Positions 7,791 through 58,200 of a stretch of DNA of 64,000 nucleotides are shown here, one piece after another (position 1 is the first letter of the stretch; the number at the start of each line of letters is the position of its first letter). The notes under the pieces were generated by a model. It was given only the letters and a program-made list of their open reading frames with translations, was not told the DNA's origin and did no database searches. The position numbers and the translations under genes are program-made. The stretch lies in assembly GCA_933228675.1 (NCBI GenBank), contig OW121743.1, positions 89,077,438 through 89,141,437 of the forward strand, in the 5' to 3' direction. The DNA is from Stomorhina lunata. Its lineage: Eukaryota; Arthropoda; Insecta; Diptera; Rhiniidae.

Positions 7791-7925
7791 TAAATTTATT
7801 ATAAAAATATTTCTATAGACAAATTTTTATTATAAAAATTTTTCTATAGAAAAATTTTCGTTATTAAAATTTTAAATGAAAGAAAGAAGAAAATTTCATG
7901 ATATTTGAATTCATGAAATTTGAAT

Positions 7926-10545: not shown

Positions 10546-10940
10546 ATGTATGAACGAAATTTTCTATAAATGCTTTATTTGTTAAAAGATTCTATGAAAA
10601 GTCAAATTTCCATGAATAAAAAAAAAAATTCTTAAAATTTTCTATTATTATTTTTTTTAATTTCCATCAATTGCAAAATTTTATGAATTTCTTTTAATTT
10701 TTTGAAAAAAATTTCCATCAGTTGCAAAATTTCATAAAAAATTTCCAACAATTGCAAAAACAAACAAAATTTTTACTTTTGCATATTTTAAAATCTATAG
10801 TAAATTTTTCATTATAGGAAATAAAAAAAATTTATAATGATATTTTCTATAATGATAATTTCTATCAAAAAATGAAATTTTCTATAAATATTTTTCTAAA
10901 GAAAAATGTTCATTATAAAAATTTTCTGTACAAAAATTCT
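10546..10940. repeat. Degenerate junction between satellites A and B
   Basis: AT-rich sequence with scattered pieces such as AATTTCCATCAATTGCAAAA repeated two or three times (10660-10760) and broken CTATAGAAA units. It looks like decayed satellite at an array edge. Confidence 0.55.
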
Positions 10941-12700
10941 ATAGAAAAATTTTTATAATGAAAATTTTTCTATAGAAAAATTTTTATAATGAAAATTTTT
11001 CTATAGAAAAATTTTTATAATGAAAATTTTTCTATAGAAAAATTTTTATAATGAAAATTTTTCTATAGAAAAATTTTTATAATGAAAATTTTTCTATAGA
11101 AAAATTTTTATAATGAAAATTTTTCTATAGAAAAATTTTTATAATGAAAATTTTTCTATAGAAAAATTTTTATAATGAAAATTTTTCTATAGAAAAATTT
11201 TTATAATGAAAATTTTTCTATAGAAAAATTTTTATAATGAAAATTTTTCTATAGAAAAATTTTTATAATGAAAATTTTTCTATAGAAAAATTTTTATAAT
11301 GAAAATTTTTCTATAGAAAAATTTTTATAATGAAAATTTTTCTATAGAAAAATTTTTATAATGAAAATTTTTCTATAGAAAAATTTTTATAATGAAAATT
11401 TTTCTATAGAAAAATTTTTATAATGAAAATTTTTCTATAGAAAAATTTTTATAATGAAAATTTTTCTATAGAAAAATTTTTATAACGAAAATTTTTCTAT
11501 AGAAAAATTTTTATAACGAAAATTTTTCTATAGAAAAATTTTTATAACGAAAATTTTTCTATAGAAAAATTTTTATAACGAAAATTTTTCTATAGAAAAA
11601 TTTTTATAACGAAAATTTTTCTATAGAAAAATTTTTATAACGAAAATTTTTCTATAGAAAAATTTTTATAACGAAAATTTTTCTATAGAAAAATTTTTAT
11701 AACGAAAATTTTTCTATAGAAAAATTTTTATAACGAAAATTTTTCTATAGAAAAATTTTTATAACGAAAATTTTTCTATAGAAAAATTTTTATAACGAAA
11801 ATTTTTCTATAGAAAAATTTTTATAACGAAAATTTTTCTATAGAAAAATTTTTATAACGAAAATTTTTCTATAGAAAAATTTTTATAACGAAAATTTTTC
11901 TATAGAAAAATTTTTATAACGAAAATTTTTCTATAGAAAAATTTTTATAACGAAAATTTTTCTATAGAAAAATTTTTATAACGAAAATTTTTCTATAGAA
12001 AAATTTTTATAACGAAAATTTTTCTATAGAAAAATTTTTATAATGAAAATTTTTCTATAGAAAAATTTTTATAACGAACATTTTTCTATAGAAAAATTTT
12101 TATAACGAAAATTTTTCTATAGAAAAATTTTTATAACGAAAATTTTTCTATAGAAAAATTTTTATAACGAAAATTTTTCTATAGAAAAATTTTTATAACG
12201 AAAATTTTTCTATAGAAAAATTTTTATAACGAAAATTTTTCTATAGAAAAATTTTTATAACGAAAATTTTTCTATAGAAAAATTTTTATAACGAAAATTT
12301 TTCTATAGAAAAATTTTTATAACAAAAATTTTTCTATAGAAAAATTTTTATAACGAAAATTTTTCTATAGAAAAATTTTTATAACGAAAATTTTTCTATA
12401 GAAAAATTTTTATAACGAAAATTTTTCTATAGAAAAATTTTTATAACGAAAATTTTTCTATAGAAAAATTTTTATAACGAAAATTTTTCTATAGAAAAAT
12501 TTTTATAATGAAAATTTTTCTATAGAAAAATTTTTATAATGAAAATTTTTATAATGAAAATGTTTGTAATGAAAATTTTTCTATAGAAAAATTTTTATAA
12601 TGAAAATTTTTCTATAGAAAAATTTTTATAATAAAAATTTTTCTATAGAAAAATTTTTATAATGAAAATTTTTGTATGGAAAAATAAAAATTGTTTTCTA
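10941..12700 (+). repeat. Satellite B (31-bp unit, about 56 copies, very uniform)
   Basis: A strictly regular 31-bp unit consisting of AAAATTTTTCTATAG, AAAAATTTTTATAA, then TG or CG. The centre is a perfect 22-bp palindrome around CTATAG. Units from about 10945 to 11480 end TAATG, those from about 11485 to 12490 end TAACG with isolated exceptions (near 12041, 12075 and 12320), and the last few return to TAATG. Near-identity of neighbouring units implies recent expansion or homogenisation. Confidence 0.98.
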
Positions 12701-13199: not shown

Positions 13200-14062
13200 G
13201 GGTGGTTAAATTGTAAGGGCCGATGTTGAATGTGAACCACACCTAAACGCCAAGTTTTTTTTCCGAATTTTATTTGACATTTCTCTATTTTAGACTTACT
13301 CAATTTGAACCATGGAGAGATACACAATCCAACAACGTGTTAAAGTTATCCAGACTTATTATGAAAATGGGCGTTCAAATCAAAATGCATATCGTGCACT
13401 TCGTGATTTTTTTGGTCAATTTGATCGTCCAAATGTGCGTACAGTCGCAAAAATCGTGGAAAAATTCGAGCAAACCGGGTCTGTAGAAGATGTGAGAACA
13501 CCAGTGCATGCTCGTACAGCTCGTACTGCAGAAAATATTGCTGCTGTTCGCGATAGTGTAGCTGAGGCCGGTCAGGCAGTTACTGTGAATGGTGTTTGCT
13601 ATCGTGAGATGATAACGAACTTTTTATGGTCTAAATTGGAAGATATGGATGCGGACGAGATGTGGTTTCAGCAGGACGGTGCCACTTGCCACACTGCTAA
13701 CGAAACAGTTGCTCTTTTGCGCAACAAATTCAATGGCCAAGATCATGTGATTTGACACAGTTGGACTTTTTTCTTTGGGGTTATTTGAAAGAAAAGGTGT
13801 ACGTCAATATTCCAGCAACAATTCAAGAGCTAAAGGATGAGATAATTCATCACATTAACGGCATAGAACCTCCATTATGCCTCAGGGTCATCGTAAATTT
13901 GGACCATCGGATGGAGGTACGTCGGCGCCCATTTGGCCGATATTTTGTTCCATACATAATTGAGTAATACCAATACATTATAATAAAATAAAATTACAAT
14001 AATTTCCTAAATAGTTTGTGTTTTATTCAAAATCAACATTGGCCCTTGAAATATAACCACCC
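13200..14062 (+). mobile_element. Internally deleted Tc1/mariner-superfamily element
   Basis: The ends are inverted repeats of about 31 bp: left GGGTGGTTAAATTGTAAGGG then CCGATGTTGA, right (reverse complement) GGGTGGTTATATTTCAAGGG then CCAATGTTGA. TA-containing sequence flanks both ends, as expected for this superfamily. Between them lies a defective transposase gene (13312-13967). At 863 bp the element is shorter than a full member of this family (normally above 1.2 kb), because a central block has been lost. It cannot move by itself but keeps both ends, so a related transposase could in principle act on it. Confidence 0.9.
13312..13967 (+). pseudogene. Transposase relic, Tc1/mariner superfamily
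   Basis: The ATG at 13312 opens MERYTIQQRVKVIQTYYENG, the N-terminal helix-turn-helix region of this transposase family, followed by VRTVAKIVEKFEQTGSVEDV. After about residue 83 the frame jumps to AVTVNGVCYREMITNF, so roughly 125 residues including the first catalytic Asp (usually in a SDEAHF-like motif) are missing. WFQQDGATCHTA with the second catalytic Asp is present. A second small deletion near 13738 shifts the frame, and RSCDLTQLDFFLWGYLKEKV (third catalytic Asp in SCDL) continues in another frame to the stop at 13967. The product would be non-functional. The 13274-13486 frame is only a shadow. Confidence 0.92.
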
Positions 14063-22570: not shown

Positions 22571-22716
22571 TAAAATCATTCTATAGAAAAATATTTTTAA
22601 CGAAAATTTTCTAAAAAAAAAAATTTTAAAGAAATTTTTCTATAGAAAAAATTTTTTCAAGAAAATGTTTCTATAGAAAAAATATTTTAATTCTTAATAG
22701 TTATGTTTGTAAATTT

Positions 22717-22925
22717 AGTAATAATGCGAGGTTTTCGATCTGTCTAAATTGGGGATAATCCTTCTGAAGAGATGGCTTAACCAACCATCGAAACGCGTCG
22801 AGGAATTTGGTTTCTCCGCAAACATTTTTTGGCTTTTTATCAATAAATTGATCTGTTACATTAATAAATAAATGTAACAGGTTTGGGATCAAATGCAAAT
22901 ACAATTCTTTTTGAAAAATATTTTA
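22717..22925 (+). mobile_element. Hammerhead-bearing dispersed element H, copy 1
   Basis: Starts near ATAATGCGAGGTTTTCGATC and ends near GGGATCAAATGCAAATAC and TTCTTTTTGAAAAATATTTT. 58375-58592 matches it end to end; 34685-34925 (minus), 33600-33725 (minus) and 31490-31640 are relatives. It holds the ribozyme at 22759-22804 and a self-complementary stretch, GTTACATT, AATAAATAAATGTAAC. It encodes nothing. Hammerheads of this kind are known in Penelope-like elements and retrozymes, so a link to such a retroelement is inferred. It sits inside satellite C. Confidence 0.7.
22759..22804 (+). ncRNA. Hammerhead ribozyme, type I, intact core
   Basis: Order of parts: stem I strand TCCTT, core CTGAAGA (22764-22770, fits CUGANGA since position 7 is free), stem II GATGG/CCATC closed by a 9-nt loop, core GAAA (22790-22793), a minimal stem III of one A-U pair with a CGCG loop, cleavage triplet GTC (cut expected after 22799), then stem I strand GAGGA pairing with TCCTT with one G-U pair. 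All conserved positions of the hammerhead core are present. The very short stem III suggests action as a dimer through the self-complementary ACGCGT. Activity is not shown. Confidence 0.8.
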
Positions 22926-25900
22926 ATGGAAATTTTTGTATAGAAAAAATTTTTTAACGAAAATTTTTCTACAGAAAAAATTTTTTAATGAACATTTTTC
23001 TATAGAAAAAATTTTTAACGAAAATTTTTCTTTAGAAAAAATTTTTAACGAAAATTTTTCTTTAGAAAAAATTTTTATCGAAAATTTTTCTATAGAAACA
23101 TTTTTTTAACGAAAATTTTTCTATAGAAAAATAATTTTGACGAAAATTTTTCTATAGAAAAATAATTTTGACGAAAATTTTTCTATAGAAAAATAATTTT
23201 AACGAAAATTTTTCTATAGAAAAATTATTTTAACGAAAATTTTTCTATAGAAAAATAATTTTAACGAAAATTTTTCTATAGAAAAATAATTTTAACGAAA
23301 ATTTTTCTATAGAAAAATAATTTTAACGAAAATTTTTCTATAGAAAAATAATTTTAATGAAAAATTTTCAACCGAAAAATATTTTTAACGAAAATTTTTC
23401 TATAGAAAAAATTTTTTAACGAAAATTTTTCTAACGAAAAATATTTTTAACGAAAATTTTTCTAACGAAAAATATTTTTAACGAAAATTTTTTTAATGAA
23501 AAATATTTTTAACGAAAATTTTTCTATAGAAACATTTTTTTAACGAAAATTTTTCTACAGAAACATTTTTTTAACGAAAATTTTTCTATAGAAACATTTT
23601 TTTAACGAAAATTTTTCTATAGAAAAATTGTTTTAACGAAAATTTTTCCATAAAAAAATTTTTTTAACGAAAATTTTTCTATAGAAAAATTTTTTTAACG
23701 AAAATTTTTCTACAGAAACATTTTTTTAACGAAAATTTTTCTATAGAAACATTTTTTTAACGAAAATTTTTCTATAGAAAAATTTTTTTAACGAAAATTT
23801 TTCTGTAGAAAAATTTTTTTAACGAAAATTTTTCTATAGAAAAATTTTTTTAATGAAAATTTTTCTATAGAAAAATTTTTTTAACGAAAATTTTTCTATA
23901 GAAAAATTTTTTTAATGAAAATTTTTCTATAGAAAAATTTTTTTAACGAAAATTTTTCTATAGAAAAATATTTTTAACGAAAATTTTTCTATAGAAAAAT
24001 TTTTTTAATGAAAATTTTTCTATAGAAAAATTTTTTTAACGAAAATTTTTCCATAGAAAAATATTTTTAACGAAAATTTTTCTATAGAAAAAATTTTTTA
24101 ACGAAAATTTTTCTAACGAAAAATATTTTTAACGAAAATTTTTCTAACGAAAAATATTTTTAACGAAAATTTTTCTAATGAAAAATATTTTTAACGAAAA
24201 TTTTTCTATAGAAACATTTTTTTAACGAAAATTTTTCTATAGAAAAATTTTTTTAGAAAAATTTTTTTAACGAAAATTTTTCTATAGAAAAATTTTTTTA
24301 ACGAAAATTTTTCTATAGAAAAAGTTTTTTAACGAAAATTTTTCTATACAAAAATTTTTGTAACGAAAATTTTTCTATACAAAAATTTTTTTAACGAAAA
24401 TTTTTCTATACAAAAATTTTTTTAACTAAAATTTTTCTATAGAAAAATTTTTTTAACGAAAATTTTTCTATAGAAAAATTTTTTTAACGAAAATTTTTCT
24501 ATAGAAAAATTTTTTTAACGAAAATTTTTCTATAGAAAAATTTTTTTAACGAAAATTTTTCTATAGAAAAATTTTTTTAACGAAAATTTTTCTATAGAAA
24601 AATTTTTTTAACCAAAATTTTTCTATAGAAAAATTTTTTTAACCAAAATTTTTCTATAGAAAAATTTTTTTAACCAAAATTTTTCTATAGAAAAATTTTT
24701 TTAACCAAAATTTTTCTATAGAAAAATTTTTTTAACGAAAATTTTTCTATAGAAAAATTTTTTTAAAAAAATTTTTTAACGAAAAAAATTTTTTAACGAA
24801 AATTTTTCTAACGAAAAATATTTTTAACGAAAATTTTTCTAACGAAAAATATTTTTAACGAAAATTTTTCTAATGAAAAATATTTTTAACGAAAATTTTT
24901 CTATAGAAACATTTTTTTAACGAAAATTTTTCTATAGAAAAATTTTTTTAGAAAAATTTTTTTAACGAAAATTTTTCTATAGAAAAATTTTTTTAACGAA
25001 AATTTTTCTATAGAAAAATTTTTTTAACGAAAATTTTTCTATAGAAAAATTTTTTTAACGAAAATTTTTCTATACAAAAATTTTTTTAACGAAAATTTTT
25101 CTATACAAAAATTTTTTTAAATAAAATTTTTCTATAGAAAAATTTTTTTAACGAAAATTTTTCTATAGAAAAATTTTTTTAACGAAAATTTTTCTATAGA
25201 AAAATTTTTTTAACGAAAATTTTTCTATACAAAAATTTTTTTAACGAAAATTTTTCTATAGAATAATTTTTTTAACGAAAATTTTTCTATAGAAAAATTT
25301 TTTTAACGAAAATTTTTCTATAGAAAAATTTTTTTAACGAAAATTTTTCTATAGAAAAATAATTTTAACGAAAATTTTTCTATAGAAAAATAATTTTAAT
25401 AAAAATTTTTCTGTAGAAAAATAATTTTAACGAAAATTTTTCTAACGAAAAATATTTTTAACGAAATTTTTTCTAACGAAAATTTTTCTATAGCAAACAT
25501 TTTTTAACGAAAATTTTTCTAACGAAAAATATTTTTAACGAAAATTTTTCTAACGAAAAATATTTTTAACGAAAATTTTTCTAACGAAAAATATTTTTAA
25601 CGAAAACTTTTCTAACGAAAAATATTTTTAACGAAAATTTTTCTAACGATAAATATTTTTAACGAAAATTTTTCTAACGAAAAATATTTTTAACGAAAAA
25701 TATTTTTAACGAAAAATATTTTTAACGAAAATTTTTCTAACGAAAAATATTTTTAACGAAAATTTTTCTAACGAAAAATATTTTTAACGAAAATTTTTCT
25801 ATAGAAAAAATTTTTTTACGAAAATTTTTCTATAGAAAAAATTTTTTTACGAAAATTTTTCTATAGAAAAAATTTTTTAACGAAAATTTTTCTAAAGAAA

Positions 25901-26089
25901 AAATTTTCTAGACAAATTTTCGTAAAATTATTTTTTTATAGAAAAATAATTTTAACGACCATTTTCTATAGAAAACTAATTTTAATGACAATATTTCTAC
26001 AGAAAATTAATTAAAATGAAATTTTTTCTACAGAAAAACAATTTTAACGAAAATTTTTCTATAGAAAAAATTTTTTAACGAAAATTTTT

Positions 26090-26640
26090 CCATAGAAAAA
26101 AATTATTTTTGTATAGAAAAATTGTCATTAAAATTTCTATAGAAAAATTTTCGTTAAAATATGTTTTCCGTAGAAAATGTTTCGTTAAAATATGTTTTCT
26201 GTAGAAAAATTTTTGTTAAGAGAATTTTTCTATAGAAAAAAATTTTGTTAAAATTATTTTTCTATAGAAAAATTTTCATTAAAATTATTCTTCTATAGAA
26301 AAATGTTCGTTAAAATTATTTTTCTATAGAAAAATTTTCGTTAAAATTTGTTTTCTATAGAAAAATTTTCGTTAAAATTATTTTTCTATAGAAAAATTTT
26401 CTTTAAAATTATTTTTCTAAAGAAACATTTTCGTTAAAATTGTTTTTCTGTAGAAAAATTTTCATTGGAATTAATTTTCTGTAGAAAAATTGCCATTAAA
26501 ATTAGTTTTCTATAGAAAATGTTCGTTAAAATTATTTTTCTATAGAAAAATTTTCGTTAAAACTATTTTGCTATGGAAAAATTTTCGTTAAGATTATTTT
26601 TCTATAGACAAATTTTCGTTAAAATTATTTTTCTATAATA
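26090..26640 (-). repeat. Inverted end block of satellite C
   Basis: Here the repeat reads CTATAGAAAAATTTTCGTTA followed by AAATTATTTTT, the reverse complement of the TAACGAAAATTTTTCTATAG units that fill the array up to about 26090. The switch happens within one or two units, with mixed units near 26100-26220. Confidence 0.85.
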
Positions 26641-31489: not shown

Positions 31490-31640
31490 GGAAGCCCCGA
31501 AAAGTCATCGAAACGCGTTCGTTTTATCAAAAAACTATTTATTACAATAATAAATAATTGTAATAAATTGGGATCTTAGTGCAATACACTGCAGTAAAAC
31601 TTTTTAATTAAATGTTTGATGTCCCAAAATTTTGGAGAAA
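31490..31640 (+). mobile_element. Element H, partial copy, ribozyme broken
   Basis: Begins with the right half of the ribozyme (CATCGAAACGCGTTC at 31506). It continues with TTTATCAAAAAACTATTTAT, a TTACAATAATAAATAATTGTAA palindrome and TTAGTGCAATACACTGCAGT. The last 115 bp are an inverted near-identical copy of 34685-34800. CTGANGA and the stem II 5' strand are missing. Confidence 0.7.
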
Positions 31641-33595
31641 CCCATTTTAATAAATACATTAATGTTGTGAAAGAATCAACGAATAAGATAAAAATAAATT
31701 GCATACGTTGAAAAAGTGCGATATTTCCGTAAATGGCATCAACAATGTTTATTCGTCCCAAATGTGTTCAATCGACAAATTTAAACAACGAGTTTTTTAA
31801 GTCGAATTCGTCGTGCGGGACGAAATTAGTCGTTCGTCCTAATTGTGTTTATACATTTAAATTAAATTATTTATTTTAAAAAGAAATCAATGGAATTTAT
31901 TTATTATGGTCATTCTATCGACGGAAATGAATATGTGTATATCGTCAGACTATCTTCAACAGTCCGATCTTAAAATTACTCCGAAAGTCTAAAAAAAAGT
32001 AAACTAATACCTATTAATTTATACCTATTTCAAATACCACGTCTACAAAAATTTCTAATTATTTATTTTCTTCAATTATGATTGGACAAATCTGATCCCC
32101 AATTTTTTTTCTCAAATGAATACTCATTACATTCAAGTTTTCGTTCTTATTCACGTTGACACAAATAACCATATTTGTACAAGAAAAAAAAACATACAAT
32201 AAAATTTAATTTTATTTTGTATTTTCTTGTATTTTTTTTTATTACTCTTGAAAACAAGAAACAAAGTTGTGTACTCGTATGAAGTTAATTTTCCCAACGT
32301 TCAGTCTGAATCTCATGCCCCAGAGTCTGTGTACTCGTACTTGACTTTAATATTTTCTTTAGCATTTGACAACAGACGACATGACAAGCTTAAGCTTAAC
32401 TGCAGCAGTAGTAGTGCCAATCGCACAAAAGACATTGATCTTTAGCAAAATTTTGACAATTTATGACAGCGAATTTGAAGTTGACATTTTGTTTCTGCGA
32501 TTTTGAGTCAAATTTTTTTTTATATGACAAAGAAATAAATAGACAAACGAAATCACTCTAATGATGATGGGGTTAAACCCGGGTAATTGAATGATATTTG
32601 TTTGAAATACGAAGGGTATTATTTAAGTTTTGGGAATAGCAAAATAAAGAAAACAAACATGGCTATGTACCATTCAGAATTGATAGTTCTACCAAAGACT
32701 TTATAATATAAAAGTGGATAAAACACGTGTATGTACCTTAGCTTTCTCTTATTGGATAATCGTCATTTGTTGTTTCCGAATTAGAGTAAAAGCGGTATAA
32801 TCTCTTTTATGGGACTTTTCAAAACGACCATACGCAAATCAATGTATGAAAGTGGAACTTATATATATTATAGAGTCTTTGGTTTTGTGTTTCTCAAGCT
32901 AACCTGAAGCTACATAACCAATTCGGCCAAAGAAATAGGTGACCATTTGCTTCGTTGTGCATCTTCCACGAACAACTTTTATTGGATTTAGGTCTTCTTG
33001 AAATACTCACAAGGACCGTAGCTTTTTTGTTTTTGGCTCATAAGTATATATCCATTTGACATCACGATGGTGTTACCATATTTTAGCTATAAATACTATA
33101 TAAATACTACCCCTCGTATGAGGAGGGTAAGATGTGAGATATGTCTAAGATCTTTGCCTTTGAATTGGCCAAATTTGAATATTACATTTTTCATTAGCGT
33201 TTATTTTTTGTTGTTGTTTATGGTTGAATAAAAATTCACATAAATTTACAAATTCTAGTGAAATACAACAAATTTATTTGTTATATATTTTTTGTTTTTG
33301 AAATTAGTCATAGACTATTTTACAAATTGTTGTAATCATTTGTTTTTCTCAAAATTTACGTCAAATTGTGCAATAATTGCATATGTAAATGTAATAATTC
33401 TGATGTGGTTTGAAATGTATTCGATTGTATTACACATTTTACATGGTGTCAGTTTTTGGCTTGTATTATAGAGCACGAGTCCAACAAGTTTTAGGGGTTT
33501 CGAAGGAAGAATTTTACGAAATAAAAATTATCTTTAATACTCTTAAAATAGAACTTTAGATGATAGTGTTTCTTGGTCAAATCGATCGATAAATG
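31641..33595. other. Spacer containing one dispersed repeat
   Basis: Apart from R2 copy 2 (32725-32890), no feature is supported. The frame at 32227-32445 has no recognisable family. Confidence 0.35.
32725..32890 (+). repeat. Dispersed repeat R2, copy 2
   Basis: Matches 6240-6420 (CCTTAGCTTTCTCTTATTGG, GACTTTTCAAAACGACCATA, TATTATAGAGTCTTTGGTTT), with some indels. Unknown family. Confidence 0.6.
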
Positions 33596-33599
33596 GTTT

Positions 33600-33725
33600 T
33601 TTGATAAAAACCAAAAAAAAATGTTGGTATATACCTTTCCTCGACGCGTTTTGATGGTTTGCTAGAATAGAATAATTCCTAATTCTAGACAGATTGAAAA
33701 CCATTAATTATATCTAATTTGCGAG
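33600..33725 (-). mobile_element. Element H, decayed copy
   Basis: The minus strand keeps TCTAGAATTAGG, CAAACCATC, AAAACGCGTCGAGGAAAGG and TTTTTTTGGTTTTTATCAA. CTGANGA is lost and the GAAA core is AAAA, so no ribozyme can form. Confidence 0.65.
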
Positions 33726-34211
33726 ACAGAATAAATTCAAATTATATTGTCTAAACAAATATTAACATTAAGTTTTCTTTTTAAAATTTTCTTTAACGGA
33801 ATTGTTTATCCGAAAATTTAATACGAAATCGTAAAAATGCGCCAATGAATTCTTAACAAAATCTTTTTAAAAGTTATTGTGAGATACCGACCGATCTGTT
33901 GGATAGAATATGCATAAGTCACTTTTAAATTTTGAATTCAAATTAGAAAAAAATAATAATAATAAAAATGTCAGCATCATTTTCATTTGCAGCCAACTTC
34001 GCTACAAAACGCTTTGTCAAAATCGGATTATCCAACCGCTTAGAGTTGTCGCTGCGTTGTTTTGTTTGATTCATACAAACTTATTTAGGTTGGTCTGTTA
34101 ATCAAATCCAAAAGCTCTTCAAAAATATAACACTTTAATGCTGGTAACTTTAAAACTTAACCAGATATGACGATAAAAATTCTCTTGAAGAATTTAGATA
34201 CTATCACCACG
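33726..34211. other. Spacer, nothing recognised
   Basis: AT-rich, no supported feature. Confidence 0.35.
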
Positions 34212-34345
34212 GGTCGACACAAAGAGAACAGAACAAAAAAAATAAGGGGCAGAGTTGCCGTTTTTTTTATAGCTTTAACTAAAATAAGGATTTTTCTCCA
34301 ACGTGTAGTTCTAAAAAGTTTAAAAAGTTTTCTACTCCATTTTTA
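34212..34345 (+). repeat. Conserved leader in front of a satellite array, copy 2
   Basis: Matches 1231-1362: GGTCGACACAAAGAGAACAG, GCAGAGTTGCCG, TTTAACTAAAATAAGGATTT and TTTTCTACTCCATTTTTATC. The satellite begins at once, as in copy 1. Confidence 0.65.
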
Positions 34346-34684
34346 TCAAAAATTTTCCTATAGAAATTTTTTCTATCAAAAAGTTTTTTAACAAAAATTT
34401 TTCTATAGAAAATTTTTTTATCAAAAATTTTTCTATAGACAATTTTTTTTCAAAAATTTTTCTACAAACAATTTTTTTATTAAAAATGTTTTTATGAAAA
34501 ATTTTTAAACAAAAATTTTTAATCATCAATTTTTCTATAGAATATTTTTTTATCAACAATTTTTCTATAAAAGATTTGAAAATTTTTGATATAAAAATAT
34601 TTTTATCGAAAATTATAACAGAAAAATATTTTTATACAAAAGTTTCTATAAAATATAATTTTTTAAAAAGGTTTATCAAAATTT
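34346..34684 (+). repeat. Satellite E, short array
   Basis: About ten degenerate units of the 30-bp TTTATCAAAAATTTTTCTA repeat between the leader and the hammerhead-bearing element. Frames here (34332-34559 on the minus strand) are repeat artefacts. Confidence 0.85.
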
Positions 34685-34925
34685 GGGACATCAAACATTT
34701 AATTAAAAAGTTTTACTGTAGTGTATTGCACTAAGAATCCCAATTTATTACAATTATTTATTATTGTAATAAATAGTTTTTTGATAAAACCAAAAAATGT
34801 TGGTGGGGAAACCTTTCCTCGACGCGTTTCGATGGTTGGTTTGACCATCTCATCAGGAGGATTATCCCTAATTCTAGACAGAGCGAAAACCTCACATTAT
34901 GTATAATTTGAGGGACTGAATAAAT
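34685..34925 (-). mobile_element. Element H, copy with intact ribozyme
   Basis: Minus-strand order: CATAATGTGAGGTTTTCGCT, TCTAGAATTAGGGATAATCC, ribozyme, AACATTTTTTGGTTTTATCA, a TTACAATAATAAATAATTGTAA palindrome, TTAGTGCAATACACTACAGT, ATGTCCCAAAT. It has the same build as 22717-22925, but its last third belongs to the subtype seen at 31490-31640. It abuts satellite E on its right (minus-strand downstream) side. No coding sequence. Confidence 0.75.
34816..34861 (-). ncRNA. Hammerhead ribozyme, type I, canonical core
   Basis: On the minus strand: stem I strand TCCTC (34861-34857), CTGATGA (34856-34850), stem II GATGG/CCATC around a 9-nt loop (34849-34831), GAAA (34830-34827), one A-U pair with a CGCG loop as stem III, cleavage triplet GTC with the cut expected after 34821, then GAGGA (34820-34816), perfectly complementary to TCCTC. 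All conserved core positions are matched with five-pair stems I and II. The minimal stem III is the type reported for ribozymes in Penelope-like elements and retrozymes, which often act as dimers. Self-cleavage is predicted, not shown. Confidence 0.88.
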
Positions 34926-35880
34926 ATTTATTGAACAATTTTCCAAAGAAAAATATTTTTATTAACAATTTTTCGATTAACAAATTTTTGAATAGAAAAT
35001 ATCTTAAAATATAAAAATCTAAAATTGTTTAAAATTAGAATTTATTTCTGTTTTGAAAAATATTTCCACTATATACAAAAATATTTCAAATGTTTACAAA
35101 AATAATATTGTCGTGGCAACAATGTTCGAGATTATATTTCTTTGTTCTCTCGAACCATGTTATCTCTGTTAACATTAAAATTCCAACTGAATGATGTTAA
35201 TACTCATTTTTACGAGTTTAATTAATGATCGTGGTATTTAACAAATTAAAAAATTCATCGGCTACTGGTGGTATGGGCTGCCTACTCCTGATTATCATCA
35301 ATGGCCACCTTTAAAATTGTTTGAGAATTGATGCATATTTGAATATATCTCCAATTTTTTTTTGTCGGAAAAAATTTCAATAAACTCGCATATGTAAAGG
35401 AAACCCCTAAATAGGCATTTATCATCTAAAACTATTACTTCATTTTTGTTCGATACAACAAAATTTTTATTGATTTACATGCAACCAAATGTAATTAGCA
35501 CAACCAAACCCGTTACTATTCATTCGCTGCTGCTGTAAATGATCAATTGTTCGAACAAATTTCAAAAATATTTCAATAAAAATAAATTCTTGTTTTCTGA
35601 AATACAATTTTCAAATGACTCTATGTGTTTGTTGTGATGTCATGCTCTTAAATGATCATTTGCTTCAATATGGATATAACTCAAAACTTCGAGATTTTGA
35701 GATAGGTAAATTCATGATTTTGGTAGACTTTTCGAAGAGGGTTGCAACATTTGCTAGAGGAACCAATGGCGAAAAGTACTTGAACTTATTGGTTTTCAAA
35801 CGATTTTCGGGGGTTGGTCTAATATGGATTATATGATTCGATCTGTTTTTTTTTTTGTTATTTAGGACCAACACTCACGG
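34926..35880. other. Spacer, nothing recognised
   Basis: A few decayed satellite units to about 35040, then AT-rich unique-looking sequence. The frame at 35615-35836 has no recognisable family. Confidence 0.35.
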
Positions 35881-36771: not shown

Positions 36772-37641
36772 TTGATATTTATCGTCTGGCACCGAGAATT
36801 TTTGAAAAACAGATCGTCAAATGTTATTAAGCTGGGAATGAAAATGTTTATCCCAGTGAAAAACATTTCGATTAAACCAAAGGTAAACACTTGGTTTAAT
36901 CAGACGTGCAAACAAGCAGTCAGATCCCGAGAGGAAGATTTCAGAAACTTTCGTAATGACCAAAATCCAGTTATTGATTTGCAACGCAAATGTGCGAGGC
37001 GTATATGTGCCAAAGTATTAACACGTGAAAAATCTCTGTAGCAGCAGCGTCTTCGTACTAAAATTCATGCTGCTCCTTGGGGCAGGAAGAGTTTTTGGTC
37101 ATTCGTTAAAAGAGTTAAGAATAATGCTAGTTCTTCAATTTCTTCTCTTTTAAAGAATGGTCAAACATTCACTGACCCGGTTGACAAAGCTTACTTTTTA
37201 GCTGAATTATTTGCAAGTAGTTACCAATTGCCGGAAAGCACTTAAACTCCGCCCGAGCTCGAAAGAGTATCTGTAACTATGCCAAAGATAAAAAGGGTTT
37301 TAGCGGATCTCAACGTAAACAAGTGTTTAGAGCCGGATGGCATTCCAGCATTGGTCTTGAAGCAGTGCTGTTCGACGCTTTCGCGTCCATTAGCCAACCT
37401 TTTCAGCACCTTGTACCATGCTGGTACATTTCCTCGGTGTTGGACGGTTGCTAATGTAACGCCAATCCCTAAAAAGGGTGAGGCTACCAACCCTGAAAAT
37501 TACCGCCCAAAAGCAATTTGTTCTACACTCTCCAAAGTTTTGGAGAGTATGGTAAACCACCATCTTGTTAAATATCTGGAATCTAACGACCGCCAGTGTG
37601 GATTTCGTAGGGACGTAAGGACTCTACGGGAGATCTGCTAG
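36772..37641 (+). pseudogene. LINE reverse transcriptase relic (Jockey/CR1-like)
   Basis: One reading frame runs 36772-37641, broken by a TAG at 37039-37041 and a TAA near 37223. It encodes the endonuclease-RT linker (VNTWFNQTCKQAVRSREEDF; then, after the first stop, SFWSFVKRVKN). The first RT blocks follow: KRVLADLNVNKCLEPDGIPA, PRCWTVANVTPIPKKGEATN, ENYRPKAICSTLSKVLESMV and YLESNDRQCGFR. The catalytic FADD part is missing because the copy stops at GFR. Without the stops it would be about 290 residues of a protein normally near 900. The lack of other frameshifts suggests a younger copy than the other LINE relics here. Confidence 0.92.
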
Positions 37642-42939: not shown

Positions 42940-45390
42940 AGTCGGTTTTCGATAGAAATATTTTTCTATCGAAAAATGTTCGATACAAATATTTTTCTAT
43001 AGAAAAATTTTCGATAAATAAATTTTTCTATAGAAGAATTTTCGATAAAAAAATTTTTCTATAGAAGAATTTTCGATAAAAAAAATTTTTCTACAGAAAA
43101 ATTTTCGATAAAAAATGTTTTCTATAGAAAAACTTTCAATAAAAAAAGTTTCTATAGAAAAATTTTCGATAGAAATATTTTTCTATAGAAAAATTTTCGC
43201 TAGAAATATTTTTCTATAGAAAAATTTTCTCTAGAAATATTTTTCTATAGAAAAATTTTATACAGAAATATTTTTCTATAGAAAAATTATCGATAAAAAA
43301 ATTTTTTATCGAAAGTTTTTCTATAGTAAAATTTTCGATAAAAAAATTTTTCTATTGAAAAATTTTCGATAAAAAAATTTTTCTATAGAAAAAAAATTTT
43401 TCTGTAGAAAAATTTTCGATAAAAAAATTTGTCTATAAAAAATTTTCGATAAAAAAAATTTGTCTATAAAAAATTTTCGATAAAAAAATTTTTCTATAGA
43501 AAAATTTTCGATAAAAAATTTTTCTATAGAAAAATTTTCGATAAAAAAGTTTTTCTATAGAAAAATTTTCGATAAAAAAATTTTTCTATAGAAAAATTTT
43601 CATTAAAAAATTTTTCTATAGAAAAATTTTCGATAAAAAAATGTTTCTATAGAAAAATTTTCGATAAAAAAATTTTTCTATAGAAAAATTTTCGATAAAA
43701 AATTTTTCTATAGAAAAATTTTTGTTAAAAAATTTTTTCTATAGAAAAATTTTCGTTAAAAAATTTTTCTATAGAAAAACTTTCAATAAAAAATTTTTCT
43801 ATAGAAAAATTTTCGATAAAAAAATTTTTCTATAGAAAAATTTTCGATAAAAAAATTTTTCTATAGAAAAATTTTCGATAAAAAAATTTTTCTATAGAAA
43901 AATTTTCGATAAAAAAAATTTTCTATACAAAAATTTTCGATAAAAAAATTTTTCTATAGAAAAATTATCGATAAAAAAATTTTTCTATAGAAAAATTATC
44001 GATAAAAAAATTTTTCTAGAGAAAAATTTTTGATAAAAAAATTTTTCTAGAGAAAAATTTTCAATAAAAAAAATTTTTCTATGAAAAATTTTCTATAAAA
44101 AAATTTTTCTATGGAAAAATTTTCTATAAAAAAATTTTTCTATAGAAAAATTTTCGATAAAAAAATTTTTCTATAGACAAATTTTCGATAACAAAATTTT
44201 GCTAGAAAAAAATTTTCGATAAAAAAATTTTTCTAGAGAAAAATTTTCGATAAATAATTTTTCTAGAGAAAAATTTTCGATAGAAATATTTTTCTATAAA
44301 AAAAATTTTGATAAAAAAATTTTTCTATAGAAAAATTTTCTATAGAAAAATTTTCGATAAAAAAATTCTATAGAAAAATTTCGATAAAAAAATTTTTCTA
44401 TAGAAAAATTTTCTATTTAGAAAAATTTTCGGTAAAAAAATTTTTCTATAGAAAAATTTTCGATAAAAAAATTTTTCTATAGAAACATTTTCGATAGAAA
44501 AATTTTTCTAAAGAAAAATTTTCGATAAAAAATTTTTTTATAGAAGAATTTTCGATAAAAACTTTTTTATAGAAGAATTTTCAATAAAAAAATTTTTCTA
44601 TAGAAAAATTTTCGATAAAAAAATTTTTCTATAGAAAAATTTTCGATAAAAAATTTTTCTATAGAAAAATTTTCGATAAAAAAATTTTTCTATAGAAGAA
44701 TTTTCAATAAAAAAATTTTTCTATAGAAACATTTTCGTTAAAAAATTTTTTCTATAGAAAAATTTTCGATAAAAAAAATTTTTCTATAGAAAAATTTTCG
44801 TTAAAAAATTTTTTCTATAGAAAAATTTTCGTTAAAAAATTTTTCTATAGAAAAACTTTCGTTAAAAAATTTTTCTATAGAAAAATTTTCGTTAAAAAAT
44901 TTTTTCTATAGAAAAATTTTCGTTAAAAAATTTTTCTATACAAAAACTTTCGTTAAAAAATTTTTCTATAGAAAAATTTTCGATAAAAAAATTTTTCTAT
45001 AGAAAAATTTTCGATAAAAAAAATTTTTCAATAGAAAAATTTTCTATAAAAAAAAATTTTCTATAGAAAAATTTTGGATTAAAAAAAAATTTTCTATAGA
45101 AAAATTTTCGATAAAACAATTTTTCTATAGAAAAATTTTCGATAAAAAAATTTTTCTATAGAAAAAGTTTCGATAAAAAAATTTTTCTATAGAAAAATTT
45201 TCGATAAAAAAATTTTTCTATAGAAAAATTTTCGATAAAAAAATTTTTCTATAGAAAACTTTTCTATAGAAATATTTTTCTATAGAAAAATTTTCTATAG
45301 AAATATTTTCGATAAAAATATTTTTCTATAAAAAATTTTTCGATAAAAATATTTTTCCATAGAAAATTTTTCGATAAAAATATTTGTCTC
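42940..45390 (-). repeat. Satellite D (31-bp unit, about 79 copies)
   Basis: Unit GAAAAATTTTCGATAAAAAA plus ATTTTTCTATA, 31 bp. On the minus strand it reads TTATCGAAAATTTTTCTATA, so it is close to satellite C but inverted relative to it. Most units have GATAAAA, with blocks of GTTAAAA (43725-43780 and 44730-44970). Confidence 0.96.
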
Positions 45391-49790: not shown

Positions 49791-52585
49791 GAAACATACA
49801 AATTTATTATAATTTTTTTATTTAGCAAAAATTTGTCTTCATCGAAAATTCACTATAAATCAAAAATTAGTATAAATTTTTTCAATATTAAAAAATTTTT
49901 GATGTAGCAAAAAGTTATAGTAAATTTTGGTATAAAAAAAATTTATATTAAATTTTGGTATAAAAAAAAATTTTTAGTAAATTTTTGATATAGAAAATTT
50001 TTTGCTTAAAAAAATTTATAACAAATTTTTGAAACAGAAAAAATTTATGGAAAATTTTTGATATAGAAACAATTTATAGTAAATTTTTGGTATAGAAATT
50101 TTTGATGAAGAAAAAATTTATAATAAATTTTTGATATAGAAGAAATTTGGAGTAAATTTTAGACATAGAAAAAATGTATAGTAAATTTTTAATATGGAAA
50201 AATTTACAGTAAATTTTAGATTTAGAAAAAATTTATAGTAATTTTTTAATATAGAAAAAATTTATAGTAAATTTTTGATAAAGAAAAATTGTATAGTAAA
50301 TTTTTTGAAGTAGAAAATTTTTTTTTAGGAAATTTTTTGAAATAGAAAATTTTTTTAGGAAATTTTTGATATAAAAAAAATTCATAGTTAATTTTTGATA
50401 TAAAAATGTATAGTAAATTTTTAATACGAAATAATTTATAGTAAATTTTTAATATAGAAAAATTTTTTAGCAAATTTTTGATATAGAAAAAATTTATAAT
50501 TAATTTTTAATATAGAAAAAAATTAGAGTAAATTTTTGATATAGAAAAAATTTATAGTAAATTTTTGATATAGAAGAAATTTATAGTAAATTTTTGATAC
50601 AGAAAAATTTTCTATAAATTATTCTTTATCAAAAATTTACTATAAATTTTTCTGTATCAAAAACTTATAGTAAATTTTTGATAAAGAATAATTTATAGAA
50701 AATTTTTGATATAAAAAAGATTTATAGTAAATTTTTTATATAGAAAAAATTTATAGTAAAATTTTGATATGAAAACATTTATAGTAAATTTTTTTATATT
50801 GAAACAATTTATAGTAAATTTTTAATATAGAAAAAATTTATAGTAAATTTTTGGTATAAAAAAATTATAGTAAATTCTTAATATAGAAAAAATTTATAGT
50901 AAACTTTTTATATAGAAAAAATTTATAGAAAATTTTTGAAATAAAAAAAGTTACAGTAAATTTTTAATATAGAAAAAATTTATAGTAAATTTTTAATATA
51001 GAAAAAATTTATAGTAAATTTTTGATATAGAAAAAATTTATAGTAAATTTTTGATATAGAAAAAATTTATAGTAAATTTTTGATATAGAAAAATTTATAG
51101 TAAATTTTTGATACAGAAAAATTTATAGTAAATTTTAGATAAAGAAAAAATTATAGTAAAAATTCGATACAGAGAAAATTTATAGCAAATTTTTGTTAAA
51201 GAAAAAATTTATTGTAAGTTTTTTTTTATAGAAAAAATGTATAGTAAATTTTTGATATAGAAAAATTTATAGTAAATTTCTTATATAGAAAAAATTTATA
51301 GTAAATTTTTAATATGGATAAAATTTATAGTGAAAATTCGATATAGAGAAAATTTATAGTAATTTTTGACAAAGAAACAATTTATAGTAAATTTTTAATA
51401 TAAAAAAAAAATTATAGTAAAAATTAGATAAAGAGAAAAATTACAGTAAATTTTTGATATAGAAAAAATTTATAGTAAATTTTTGATATAGAAAAATTTA
51501 TAGTAAATTTTTGACAAAGAAAAAATTTATAGAAAATTTTAGATAAAGAAAAAAATTATAGTAAAAATTCTATACAGAGAAAATTTATAGCAAATTTTTG
51601 TTATAGAAAAAATTTATAGTAAGTTTTTTTTATAGAAAAAATTTGTAGTAAATTTTTGATATAGAAAAATTTATAGTTAATTTCTTATATAGAAAAAATT
51701 TATAGTAAAAATTCGATATAGAGAAAATTTATAGTAAATTTTTGATAAAGAAAAAATTTATAGAAAATTTTAGATAAACAAAAAAATTATCGTAAAAATT
51801 CGATACAGAGAAAATTTATAGCAAATTTTTGTTATAGAATGTATAGTAAGTTTTTTTTATAGAACAAATTTATAGTAAATTTTTGATATAGAAAAATTTA
51901 TAGTTAATTTCTTGTATAGAAAAAATTTATAGTAAATTTTTAATAGAGAAAAAATGTATAGTAAAAATTCGACATAGAGAAAATTTATAGTAATTTTTGA
52001 CAAAGAAAAAATTTATAGTAAACTTTTAATATAGAAAAAAATTATAGTAAAAATTAGATACAGTGAAAAATTACAGTAAATTTTTGATGTAGAAAAAATT
52101 TATAGGAAATTTTTTATATAGAAAAAATTCATAGAAAATTTTTGATATAGAAAAATTTATAGTAAATTTCTTATATAGAAAAAATTTATAGTAAATTTTT
52201 AATATAGAAAAAATTTATAGCAAAAATTCGATATAGAGAAAATTTATAGTAATTTTTGACAAAGAAAAAATTTATAGTAAATTTTTAATATAGAAAAAAA
52301 TTATAGTAAAAATTAGATACAGAGAAAAATTACAGTAAATTTTTGATATAGAAAAAATTTATAGTAAATTTTTGATATAGGAAAAATTGATAGTAAATTT
52401 TTTATATAAAAAAAAATGTGTACCAAATTTTTTATAAAGAAAAATTATAGTAAATTTTTTATATAGAAATTTTTGATATAGAAACAATTTATAGCTAATT
52501 TTTGATATAGAAAAAATTATAGAAAAAAAAATTATAGTAAATTTTTAATATAGAAAAAATTTGTAGTAAATTTTTGATATAGATT
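49791..52585 (+). repeat. Satellite G, second block
   Basis: Unit GAAAAAATTTATAGTAAATT plus TTTGATATA, 28-29 bp. A 60-bp reversed patch lies at 50605-50668. A characteristic run (AAAATTCGATACAGAGAAAA, TAGCAAATTTTTGTTA, GTAAGTTTTTTTTATAG) recurs near 51162, 51567 and 51798, which marks higher-order duplication. Confidence 0.95.
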
Positions 52586-53715: not shown

Positions 53716-56715
53716 AAATCAAATTTTCGAATAAAAAATTTATTGAATTTCGAAAATTTACCATACATTTTTCTCTATTTCGAAAATTTATAATAAATTT
53801 TCTCTATATCGAAAATTTACTATAAATTTTGTATTTTTCGAAAATTTCTTACAAATTTTCACTATAACGAAAATTCAATATGAATTTTTCTATATCAAAG
53901 ATTGACTATAAGTTTTCTCTATATCAAAAATTAACTACAAATTTTGTCTATATCGAAATTTTATTATAAATTTTCTCTATATAGAAAATTTACTACAATT
54001 TTTTAGTATCGAAAATTTACTATAAATTTTCGTACATCGAAAATTTACTTAAAATTTTGTTTATATCGAAAATTTCCTATAAATTTTCTTTATATCTGAA
54101 ATTTACTATAATTTTCTCTATATCAAAAATTTACTTCCAATTTTCGTTATATCGAAAATTTCCTAAAAATTTTCGTTATATCGAAAATTTACTATAAATT
54201 TTCTCTATATCGAAAATTTACTTAAAATGTTGTCTACATCGAAAATTGAATATAAATTTTTTCTATATCGAAAATTGACTATAAATTTTCTCCATATCAA
54301 AAATTTACTATAAATTTCCTCTATATCGAAAATTAACTATAAATTTTCTCTATCTCAAAAATTTAGTATAAATTTTCTCTATATCCAAAATTGACTATGA
54401 ATTTTCTCCATATCCAAAATTTACTTTAAATTTTCTCTATATCGAAAATTTACTATAAATTTTCTCTATATAAAAAATATACTATAATTTTTATCTATAT
54501 CGAAAATTTACTAGAAGTTTTCTCAGTATCAAAAAATTTACTAGAACTTTTTTCTATATCGAAATTTTACTATAAGTTTATTCTATATCAAAAATTATCT
54601 ATAAATTTTCTCTAAAACAAATATTTTCTATAAATTTTTTCTATATCAAAAATTTTCTATAAACTTTCTCTATATCAAAAATTTATTATAAATTTTCTCT
54701 AAATCGAAAATTTTCTATAAATTTTTTTCTATATCAAAAATTTATTATAAATTTTCTCAAAAAATTTACTATAAATTTTCTATTTATCGAAAATTCACCA
54801 TAAATTTTGTCTATATCTAAAAACTATTCTAAATTTTTTCTATCTTAAAAACATGCTATAAACTTTCTGTGTATCAAAAATTTACTATAAATTATTAATT
54901 TTTTCTATATCAAAAATTTACTATAATTTTTTTCAATATCCAAAATTTACTATGAATTTTCTCTATATCGAAAAATTATTTTTAATTTTCTCTATCTCGA
55001 AAACTTACTATAAATTTTCTATATATCAAAAATTACCAGAAATTTTCTCTATATTGAAAATTTACTATAAATTTTTTCTATGTAGAAAATTTCCTTTAAA
55101 TTTTCTCTATGTTGAAGGTTTACTATAAATTTTCTCTACATCGAAAAATTATTATAAATTTTCTCTATCTCAAAAATTTACTATAAACTTTTTTTATATC
55201 AAACATTTACTATAAATTTTTTCTATATCGAAAATTAACTATAAATTTTGTCTATATTGAAAATTAGCTAAAAAATTTGTTTATATCGAAATTTTACTAT
55301 AAATTTTATATAAATTTTTGTACTATAAATTTTCTATATATCGAAAATTTACTATTAATTTTTTCTATATTAAAAATTTACTATATATTTTCTCTATATC
55401 AAAAATTAACTATACATTTTGTCTATTTCGAAATTTTATTATAAATTTGCTCTATAAATTTCGTCTATAAATTTTATTTAAATTTTTTATTATAAATTTT
55501 CTATATATCGAAAATTTACTCAAAATTTTCTCAATATCAAAAATTTGCTATACATTTGCTCTATATCAAAAATTAAGTTTAAATTTTGTCTTTATCGAAG
55601 TTTTACTATAAATATTCTCTATATCGAAAATTAACTATAAATTTTGTCTTTATCGAAATTTTAATATAAATTTTATATACATTTTTTTACTATAAATTTT
55701 CCATATATCGAAAATTTACTATAAATTTTCCCTATATCGCAAATTTACTATAAATTTTCTTTATATAAAAAATTTACTAAAAATTTTCTCTATATCGAAA
55801 TTTTACTATTAATTTTTTCTATATCAAAAATTTACTATAAATTTTCTCTATATCAAAAATTAACTATAAATTTTTTCTTTTATTATAAATTTGCTCTATA
55901 TCGAAAATTAGCTATAAATTACGTCTATAAATTTTATTTAAATTTTTTATTATAAATTTTCTATGTATCGAAAATTTACTAAAAATTTTCTCAATATCAA
56001 AAATTTGCTATACATTTGCTCTATATAAAAATTAAGTTTAAATTTTGTCTTTATCGAAGTTTTACTATAAATTTTCTCTATATCGAAAATTAGCTATAAA
56101 TTTTGTCTTTATCGAAATTTTACTATAAATTTTATATACATTTTTTTACTATAAATTTTCCATATATCGAAAATTTACTATAAATTTTCCCTATATCAAA
56201 AATTTACTAAAAATTTTCTTTATATCAAAAATTTACTATAAATTTTCTCAACATTAAAAATTATCTATAAATTTTGTCTGTATCGAAATTTAACTATAAA
56301 TTTGATATAAATTTTATATAAATTTGTTACTATAAATTTACTATATATCGAACATTTACTATAAATTAACTATATATTGAAAATTTACTATAAATTTTAT
56401 ATATATCGAAAATTTTCTATAAATTTTCTCTATACCAAAATTTTTCTATGAATTTGCGCTATATTAAAAATTTACTATAAATTTTCCCTATATCAAAAAT
56501 TAACTATAAATTTTGTCTGTATCGAAATTTTACGATAAATTTTCTCAATATCGAAAATTTACTAGAATATTTTTCTTTATCAAAAATTTGATATGTATTT
56601 TCTGTGTGTCAAAAATTTTCTAATATTATTTCCATATCGAAAATTTATTATACAATTTCTTTACATCGAAAGTATACTATAAGTTTTACCTATATCGAAA
56701 ATTTACTATAAATTT
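53716..56715 (-). repeat. Satellite G, third block, reverse orientation
   Basis: Reads TTTACTATAAATTTTCTCTA plus TATCGAAAA, 29 bp, opposite to the blocks at 49.8-52.6 and 62-64 kb. A run of unusual units (ATAAATTTTATTTAAATTTT, GCTATACATTTGCTC, TTAAGTTTAAATTTTGTC) at 55460-55740 repeats at 55920-56200, about 459 bp on. Confidence 0.95.
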
Positions 56716-57534: not shown

Positions 57535-58200
57535 ATAGAATAGTAAACTGTGAATTTGATTGTGTTATGCTCTTTAGCGAAGATGTTGCGGATAAGCCGG
57601 CGAAGGTTTTAAAGTTTATAAGACTAATTTCCGACAGATGGCGCCACTGAAAATTACTAAAAATTATTTAAATCGTAAACTGTACATTTGATCATGCTAT
57701 GATCTTTAGCAAAGTTGTAGCGCATGAGCCGACGAAGGCTTTTTAGTTGGTATGAATAATTTCCGACAGGTGGCGCTACTGAAATTTACTCAAAGTCAAT
57801 TTAATCGTATGCTGTACATTTAATCATGCTATAATCTTTAGCAAAGTTGTTGCACATGAGCCGACGAAGGTTTCTTAGTTGGTATGAAGAAATTTCGACA
57901 GGTGGCGCTACTGAAATTTACTCAAAGTCAATTTAATCGTATGCTGTACATTTAATCATGCTATAATCTTCAGCAAAGTTGTTACGGAAAAGCCGAAGAA
58001 GGTTTATGAATTGGAATAAGCAAAGTCCGATAGGTGGCGCCACAGAAAACTACTCAAAATGAATTAAATCGTAAACTGTGCATTTGATCAGACTATAATC
58101 TTTAGCAAAGTTGTTGCGCATGAGTCGACAGAGGTTTCTGTTGATATGAATAATTTCCAAAATTATTCAAAATGAGTTAAACTGTAAACTATGCAAACAT
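57535..58200 (+). repeat. Tandem repeat of about 130 bp, five units, with CTCF-like motifs
   Basis: The anchor GCAAAGTTGT or close variants recurs at 57577, 57719, 57841, 57973 and 58104, giving periods of 142, 122, 132 and 131 bp. Four units carry CCGACAGATGGCGCCACTG or variants: 57631-57649, 57773-57790, 57896-57913 and 58027-58045. The core AGRTGGCGC matches the known Drosophila CTCF consensus. The fifth unit has lost the motif. The repeat lies inside the Helitron-like element. Confidence 0.9.

Follow-up and report, generated by a model that had tools for sequence, protein, structure and literature searches.

Retrozyme-like hammerhead repeats with Penelope-type insertion scars in the genome of the fly Stomorhina lunata

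Introduction

A short sequence on the minus strand of a 64,000-nt stretch of the Stomorhina lunata genome (contig OW121743.1, positions 89,077,438 to 89,141,437 of the forward strand; referred to here as the window) had been described in an earlier note as a canonical hammerhead self-cleaving ribozyme. This raised the question of whether the resemblance is genuine and, if so, what kind of element carries the ribozyme and by what route its copies enter the genome. The relevant features of the window are collected in Table 1.

Table 1. Hammerhead motif, related copies and adjoining satellite in the window
Feature	Position	Strand	Remarks
Type I hammerhead motif	34816..34861	minus	sequence reading and descriptor search; one-pair stem III, CGCG loop, GTC
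Solo 5'-truncated copy of the 488-nt unit	34654..34926	minus	unit 384-488 joined to 1-167
AT-rich TTTTCTATAGAAAA-type satellite	34340..34664		abuts the 3' end of the window element; insertion environment
Old degraded copy	33589..33772	minus	hammerhead core lost
Older partial copy	31508..31656	plus	unit 29-165 at 94%; ATCGAAACGCGT retained
Sister-subfamily copy	22711..22877	plus	CTGAAGA core from 22764, between satellite arrays

Results

Hammerhead motif

Read along the minus strand from 34861 to 34816, the motif consists of the successive segments TCCTC, CTGATGA, GATGGT, CAAACCA, ACCATC, GAAA, CGCG, TC and GAGGA. The core CUGANGA...GAAA...UH is present, the stems follow in the order I, II and III, and the open end lies at stem I. 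Stem I has five pairs (TCCTC/GAGGA) and, by eye, can be extended beyond an internal loop via GGGA/TCCC, while stem II, under a 7-nt loop, is built from six Watson-Crick pairs (GATGGT/ACCATC), one more than the five that the earlier note had counted. The other parts that it had named, CTGATGA, GAAA, the single-pair stem III with CGCG, the GTC triplet and the TCCTC/GAGGA stem I, were all found, and its cleavage position at minus-strand 34820 agrees with our reading, in which C17 is 34821 and the predicted cut falls between 34821 and 34820. Stems I and II are clear; stem III is a single A-U pair closing CGCG, and the monomer ribozyme is for that reason probably weak. The sequence ACGCGT is palindromic, and since ACGCGU is self-complementary two copies could form a common stem III, which would then have six pairs instead of one.

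A strict descriptor (CTGANGA, five Watson-Crick pairs in each of stems I and II, GAAA and a short stem III) matched only 34816-34861 on both strands of the window and was matched by none of 1500 simulated third-order Markov windows, in keeping with the earlier view that a chance origin is very unlikely. A laxer descriptor with 4-bp stems and G-U pairs allowed gave 8 matches in 120 simulated windows, and about 0.9 occurrences of CTGATGA-gap-GAAA alone are expected by chance; the strength of the motif thus resides in its two perfect stems and short stem III. The exact 40-nt ribozyme occurs 750 times in the genome (367 + 383), against none for a reversed-pattern control, and these copies, together with conservation of the core in a sister subfamily described below, uphold the hammerhead identity. 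We therefore regard the motif as confirmed as a real hammerhead self-cleaving RNA sequence, cleavage itself being predicted.

Folding energy and curated models were less favourable. The 46-mer folded with unremarkable energy (z -1.4; 18 of 200 shuffles as good or better), as did an 81-mer (z -1.1; 27 of 200), and core bases of the 46-mer are paired in its minimum-energy fold, which counts against the ribozyme reading. The covariance-model check that the earlier note had proposed, half of its refuting condition, also failed, in that no Rfam model matched any part of the window at gathering cut-offs and, at permissive E-values in a 501-base search, only Hammerhead_3 was returned, with the wrong topology (16.3 bits, E 1.4). 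This type III reading was rejected as chance-level and poor in stem III. Rfam up to E 5 was equally silent on four resident Penelope regions with hammerheads (L046, L051, L052 and L053) and on the tandem copies of locus L009, in what was a larger search with correspondingly stricter E-values. Its silence on the window motif is thus weak evidence, and Rfam was set aside as an arbiter.

The 488-nt element and its copies

The genome searched comprised 728 Mb in 104 contigs. A 161-nt query spanning the motif region gave at least 42 matches, the best 40 of 1406 candidates having been scored. At locus L009 the repeat recurs in exact tandem every 488 nt, and the tandem units of L025 are 99.7-99.8% identical to this 488-nt unit. 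The unit has a GC content of 0.314, and three units joined end to end contain open stretches of at most 85 codons. A diagnostic 23-mer of the unit occurs exactly 3025 times in the genome (1537 + 1488), with no occurrence of the reversed-pattern control. An exact search of viral contigs for the element found nothing.

The window copy is 98.9% identical to the L009 unit, with one loop-II difference within the ribozyme (unit 468 T>A), and its 3' end lies at site B as defined below; its final few bases at 34654 may be target sequence. In the sister subfamily, represented by 22711-22877 and other loci, the core is CTGAAGA with GAAA, and stems I and II are largely intact apart from a C-A mismatch at the sixth stem II pair; the core was preserved in six sister copies aligned with the 488-nt family. 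The older partial copy has lost the 3' strand of stem I to a deletion, and the remaining ribozyme is absent.

As expected of a retrozyme, the units are short, non-coding and in tandem, each with a type I hammerhead, their GC content is below 50%, and target duplications exceed 4 bp (11-14 nt in 8 of 11 paired loci, see below). No reverse transcriptase/GIY-YIG reading frame of the kind that defines a Penelope element was found in the unit, in which no open stretch is longer than 85 codons. The element is retrozyme-like and probably non-autonomous and non-LTR; it is not itself a Penelope element, though its insertions end in Penelope style. The earlier note had pointed to Penelope-like elements or retrozymes, and of these the second applies, the first surviving only in the manner of insertion.

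Insertion ends, inverted pairs and target duplications

Thirty-four fetched loci (L009-L028 and L032-L045) and the window were mapped to the unit, giving 35 loci with 46 arms. Thirty-one of the 34 lie on contig C1 and, as all were drawn from the best-scoring genome matches, the sample is young and narrow. Single arms were found at 24 of the 35 loci and paired arms at 11. The 5' ends of the arms are variable; the 3' ends cluster at two sites about 43 nt apart. Site A, at unit 109-129 (108-128 nt past the cleavage position), accounts for 25 of the 46 arms, and 21 end at or beyond site B, at unit 157-168 (156-167 nt past the cleavage position), with two outliers, an arm of L012 ending at 182 and L034 at 147, classed as B. 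By eye, both sites bear CTTTTTAAT-type sequence, and a GGTTTTATCAAAA/TTTTGATAAACC pairing can close just upstream of B in the unit.

All 11 paired loci are head-to-head with their 3' ends outward, and all 11 combine one A end with one B end. The probability of such uniform mixing was 0.0029 when the 22 arm ends were re-dealt and 0.00045 when calculated from single-copy frequencies. Strict A/B exclusivity, which held in these first pairs, failed in two of three further pairs taken from the diagnostic 23-mer list (one mixed and two A/A, one of the latter without a clear duplication), so that mixed A/B pairs amount to 12 of 14, with no B/B pair. Four additional pairs, picked because one arm extended to B, all have A opposite and were excluded from the count of 14 owing to that selection; two more (84248858/84249462 and 75885896/75886385) were left unclassified. 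The second of these may be a duplicate of 75871206/75871695. Among the first 100 places of the ribozyme, inspection by eye showed ten head-to-head (minus-then-plus) neighbours less than 1 kb apart and no plus-then-minus neighbours, and the first 100 places of the 23-mer included six and none, respectively, with one plus-then-minus pair at 1.1 kb.

A flanking direct repeat of 11-14 nt exceeded all five shifted-flank controls at 8 of the 11 paired loci, for example AAATCGATTTAT in L009 and AATAAAATTTTATA in L037, while the pairs of L011, L025 and L040 showed no duplication above the shifted-flank background. Duplications of 11-12 nt were also seen by eye in two of the three further pairs. Among single copies, 5 of the 23 tested exceeded the shifted-flank controls, L020 being omitted from the duplication table. 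Single copies ended at A in 12 cases and at B in 10, with L013, L021 and L033 counted as one event on account of their common host flanks (14 and 10 uncollapsed). These three loci have the same 5' end and the same flanks at three places on contig C1, and one insertion was thus probably carried by a larger repeat.

Insertion environment

Insertions lie in AT-rich surroundings: AT content was 82.4% within 30 bp against 74.7% farther out, and higher in 29 of the 32 insertions. At least two TCTATAG/CTATAGA words were present in the 300-bp flanks of 16 of 32 sampled insertions, with L020, L021 and L033 left out of the count. The earlier note had spoken of a ribozyme-bearing repeat beside a satellite array; a satellite does adjoin the solo truncated copy, but it belongs to the environment and was rejected as part of the element, there being no satellite near 16 of the 32 insertions.

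Other repeats were seen in the window. Many AT-rich satellite arrays with periods of about 29-31 nt, several of them TTTTCTATAGAAAA-type, occupy 7910-12685, 22913-26637, 42946-45385, 49893-52583, 53750-56715 and 62041-64000. A tandem array of 4.7 copies of a 132-bp unit, distinct from the AT-satellite, lies at 57539-58158. By eye, a 147-codon frame at 13312-13755 resembles a mariner-type transposase fragment, and a 120-codon frame at 37279-37641 resembles a fragment of a non-LTR (Jockey-like) reverse transcriptase.

Predicted RNA and form of the template

When circularised, the unit has a predicted minimum free energy of -118.5 kcal/mol, compared with a shuffle mean of -82.3 (sd 5.1; z -7.1), a value reached by none of 200 dinucleotide shuffles. 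This predicted fold, together with the core kept in the six sister copies, suggests that the unit is under constraint at the RNA level. In the circular ensemble stem II has a probability above 0.9 and stem I of about 0.06; as the energy model is ignorant of the catalytic fold, we take the latter value as neutral to mildly negative.

The cleavage site is crossed by 41 of the 46 arms, and 9 are longer than one unit, so the usual template cannot be a linear, ribozyme-cut monomer. Both arms have private variants in common in L011 (a 3-nt deletion) and in L039 (104 C>T), as do successive units in L014 and L020, and a common 355 T variant is present in all units of L025. Other variants are confined to one arm (L012, L018) or to one of several units (L020, L025), as expected of later mutation. 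The shared variants fit a single RNA serving both arms together with a circle copied repeatedly, and they fit a homogeneous, uncut tandem transcript as well.

Resident Penelope-like elements

Locus L031 contains a Penelope endonuclease fragment with a GIY-YIG domain (E 1.1e-6). Used as a protein query, this endonuclease gave at least 150 matches, the best 150 of 206 candidates having been scored; these are matches and not elements, some being pieces of one copy. At least 11 of them lie inside stop-to-stop frames of 830-864 codons. A Pfam search for GIY-YIG returned only two matches against the 150 or more of the protein query, and would thus have been misleading alone. Penelope-like elements are abundant on contigs C1, C2, C7, C10 and C11, with several families having 830-864-codon frames, and inverted neighbours are frequent. 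The 30 relatives of the endonuclease include those of the flies Haematobia irritans and Eurosta solidaginis.

A pattern search of eight Penelope upstream regions (L046-L053) detected minimal hammerheads lacking stem III in four of them (L046, L051, L052 and L053), and L047 and L049 carry, by eye, apparent degraded remnants. The endonuclease fragment of L031 (L031:4730-5420) has a short inverted, head-to-head stretch as its 5' end; next comes a minimal hammerhead with an AUU cleavage triplet and a stem II offset by one base. This copy ends about 116-122 nt past its own predicted cleavage position (L031 compared with L046), and a second, L054, ends about 144 nt past its own (compared with L051), both within the range of the retrozyme. 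By eye, two features recur in L046, L047, L049, L051, L052 and L053: a GACC...GGTC pairing that lies downstream of the ribozyme, and a sequence resembling CGGAGGGCCCGCCG where the frame starts. These form a possible RNA recognition structure. Comparison of the unit with the eight upstream regions revealed no common sequence, only a satellite in L049 scoring above the reversed control; thus no helper can be named.

Discussion

Proposed route of insertion

The reading that we favour, and consider likely, assigns the motif, as its ribozyme, to a retrozyme-like element that is non-autonomous and non-LTR, has a 488-nt unit and moves by a Penelope-style cycle. The motif, the unit, its copy number, the ends, the pairs, the duplications, the AT-rich sites and the resident Penelopes are observed; transcription, cleavage, circles and the identity of the acting protein are inferred. 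Tandem copies would first be transcribed and, by analogy with known animal retrozymes, adjacent hammerheads would cleave, probably after pairing into dimers via the palindromic stem III (ACGCGU), with unit-length RNAs perhaps ligated into circles. A resident Penelope-like protein, as the scars suggest, would bind this RNA and cut AT-rich DNA on both strands, the two cuts being roughly a dozen nucleotides apart. The freed 3' ends would then prime reverse transcription at internal sites of the RNA downstream of the ribozyme, either A (about 109-129) or B (about 157-168), and the cDNA would proceed upstream through the ribozyme and might circle more than once. Where both DNA ends prime, the two cDNAs would meet head-to-head and leave a palindromic insertion with an 11-14-nt duplication, usually composed of one A arm and one B arm. 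Where one end primes, the truncated 5' end would be joined to the other DNA end, giving a solo fragment such as the window copy.

Alternative origins

The unit could instead be the pseudo-LTR of an autonomous Penelope-like element carrying this hammerhead, the copies then being solo pLTRs and pLTR concatemers. This would account for the Penelope-like insertion ends in a genome in which Penelope elements abound, but it is an unlikely origin for exact 488-nt tandems with no long open reading frame between the ribozymes. Moreover, apart from satellite, all eight Penelope upstream regions lacked similarity to the unit, and the ribozymes in four of them lack the stem III present here, although with eight regions covered a further family carrying the unit is possible.

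Rather less probable still is that a LINE-type retrotransposon mobilised a SINE-like element and that its twin priming gave rise to the inverted pairs. Copies that are short, non-coding and 5'-truncated, some with target duplications, would suit such an element. Of the two ends produced by LINE twin priming, however, one is a true 3' end and the other an arbitrary internal position, whereas the outer ends of the fly pairs are both located at or close to A or B; inspection by eye showed no consistent tail of poly(A) or simple repeats, and the 3' end falls inside the tandem unit, past the ribozyme.

We give even less weight to a foldback-type DNA transposon or plain satellite, whose arms would be terminal inverted repeats with internal tandems and the ribozyme a passenger. 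Palindromic insertions with duplications, and tandem units, are features that this origin would share; the prevalence of single arms (24 of 35 sampled loci), the variable 5' and clustered 3' ends, the apparent structural constraint on the RNA strand (circular fold z -7.1) and the preservation of the ribozyme core in both subfamilies all speak against it. A chance hammerhead resemblance within an ordinary repeat, to which the silence of the curated Rfam models and the ordinary folding energy of the motif alone might be held to point, is highly improbable given the absence of strict matches in 1500 simulated windows, the conserved core across subfamilies and the equal silence of Rfam on four resident Penelope hammerhead regions.

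Relation to known systems

The comparisons made here with PMC7229834, PMC7761336, PMC3846280 and PMC7936874 refer to the consulted parts of those reports. Animal retrozymes are tandem repeats with type I hammerheads, found in insects among others, with expressed RNAs of about 170-400 nt (Cervera and de la Pena 2020, PMC7229834). The favoured element resembles them in that its tandem units are short, AT-rich and non-coding and each contain one type I hammerhead, that its predicted circle is strongly self-paired and that its copies number in the thousands, and in these respects it matches the non-LTR animal retrozymes. It differs in its 488-nt unit, in residing in a fly genome, in a circle that is here predicted only and in loci that are mostly solo or of up to about three units. 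Head-to-head pairs with tail-like ends are absent from the consulted parts of PMC7229834.

A very weak stem III with a palindromic tetraloop also has a precedent, the axolotl HHR_Amex1 having a single-pair stem III of this kind, and amphibian hammerheads cleave efficiently as dimers (PMC7229834). The same one-pair stem III under a palindromic tetraloop is found in newt and axolotl satellite hammerheads, which are satellite repeats of about 330-350 bp, whereas the fly element occurs as dispersed truncated copies. The dipteran hammerheads linked to delta-like agents likewise occur in fly genomes, that of the house fly included, but are type III (PMC7936874), a reading that is at chance level for the present motif. 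No sequence common to the fly element and the newt and axolotl satellite hammerheads is known to us.

With Penelope, the element shares head-to-head inverted copies, short duplications and an optional tail on one of the outer ends, the pairs being mixed A/B in 12 of 14 cases, as well as AT-rich targets and an internal start of reverse transcription downstream of the hammerhead; unlike Penelope, it has no open reading frame, and its hammerhead possesses a stem III and a stem I that can be extended. In Penelope, head-to-head inverted pLTRs with a 31-bp tail on one of them are flanked by duplications of 8-10 bp (PMC3846280), compared with 11-14 nt in the fly element, and the authors preferred self-priming on an antisense template. 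The purified protein of an Anolis Penelope cuts and extends both strands at AT-rich targets and starts 111-118 nt into the open reading frame, the ribozyme cut being at 26, and the tail was interpreted as the stretch between two internal start sites (PMC11167929). Ribozyme mutants of this Penelope still inserted in vitro (PMC11167929), which counts against the role given to the ribozyme in our explanation.

Penelope-like elements have been considered strong helper candidates for retrozymes because of their common hammerheads, tandem copies and co-existence (PMC7229834), and retrozyme repeats carry no conserved motif that would betray a helper (PMC7761336). The titles and beginnings of abstracts searched contained no retrozyme with Penelope-type scars and no report of the fly family, in a coverage that was partial and with prior notice possible in Cervera and de la Pena 2014 or Lunse et al. 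2017; the term 'head-to-head' was absent from the papers, as far as consulted, that one full-text search returned. What is new here is the insertion scars of the sampled copies, which provide unusually direct evidence on the mobiliser of a retrozyme.

More tentatively, we propose that animal retrozymes may parasitise Penelope-like elements, and that the Penelope protein may open both strands and prime a pair of cDNAs, as a rule one at each of two start sites and probably on a single RNA, maybe circular, so as to leave a palindromic insertion with one A arm and one B arm. Young copies with a Penelope-type scar make the guess of a Penelope helper testable in one genome. Since each copy can be read end to end, and the diagnostic 23-mer marks about 3000 places, the family offers extensive natural data on Penelope integration, which would inform start sites, tail choice and two-ended priming. 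If our proposal is true, two-ended target priming, rather than self-priming, would explain the puzzling inverted pLTR and one-sided tail of Penelope.
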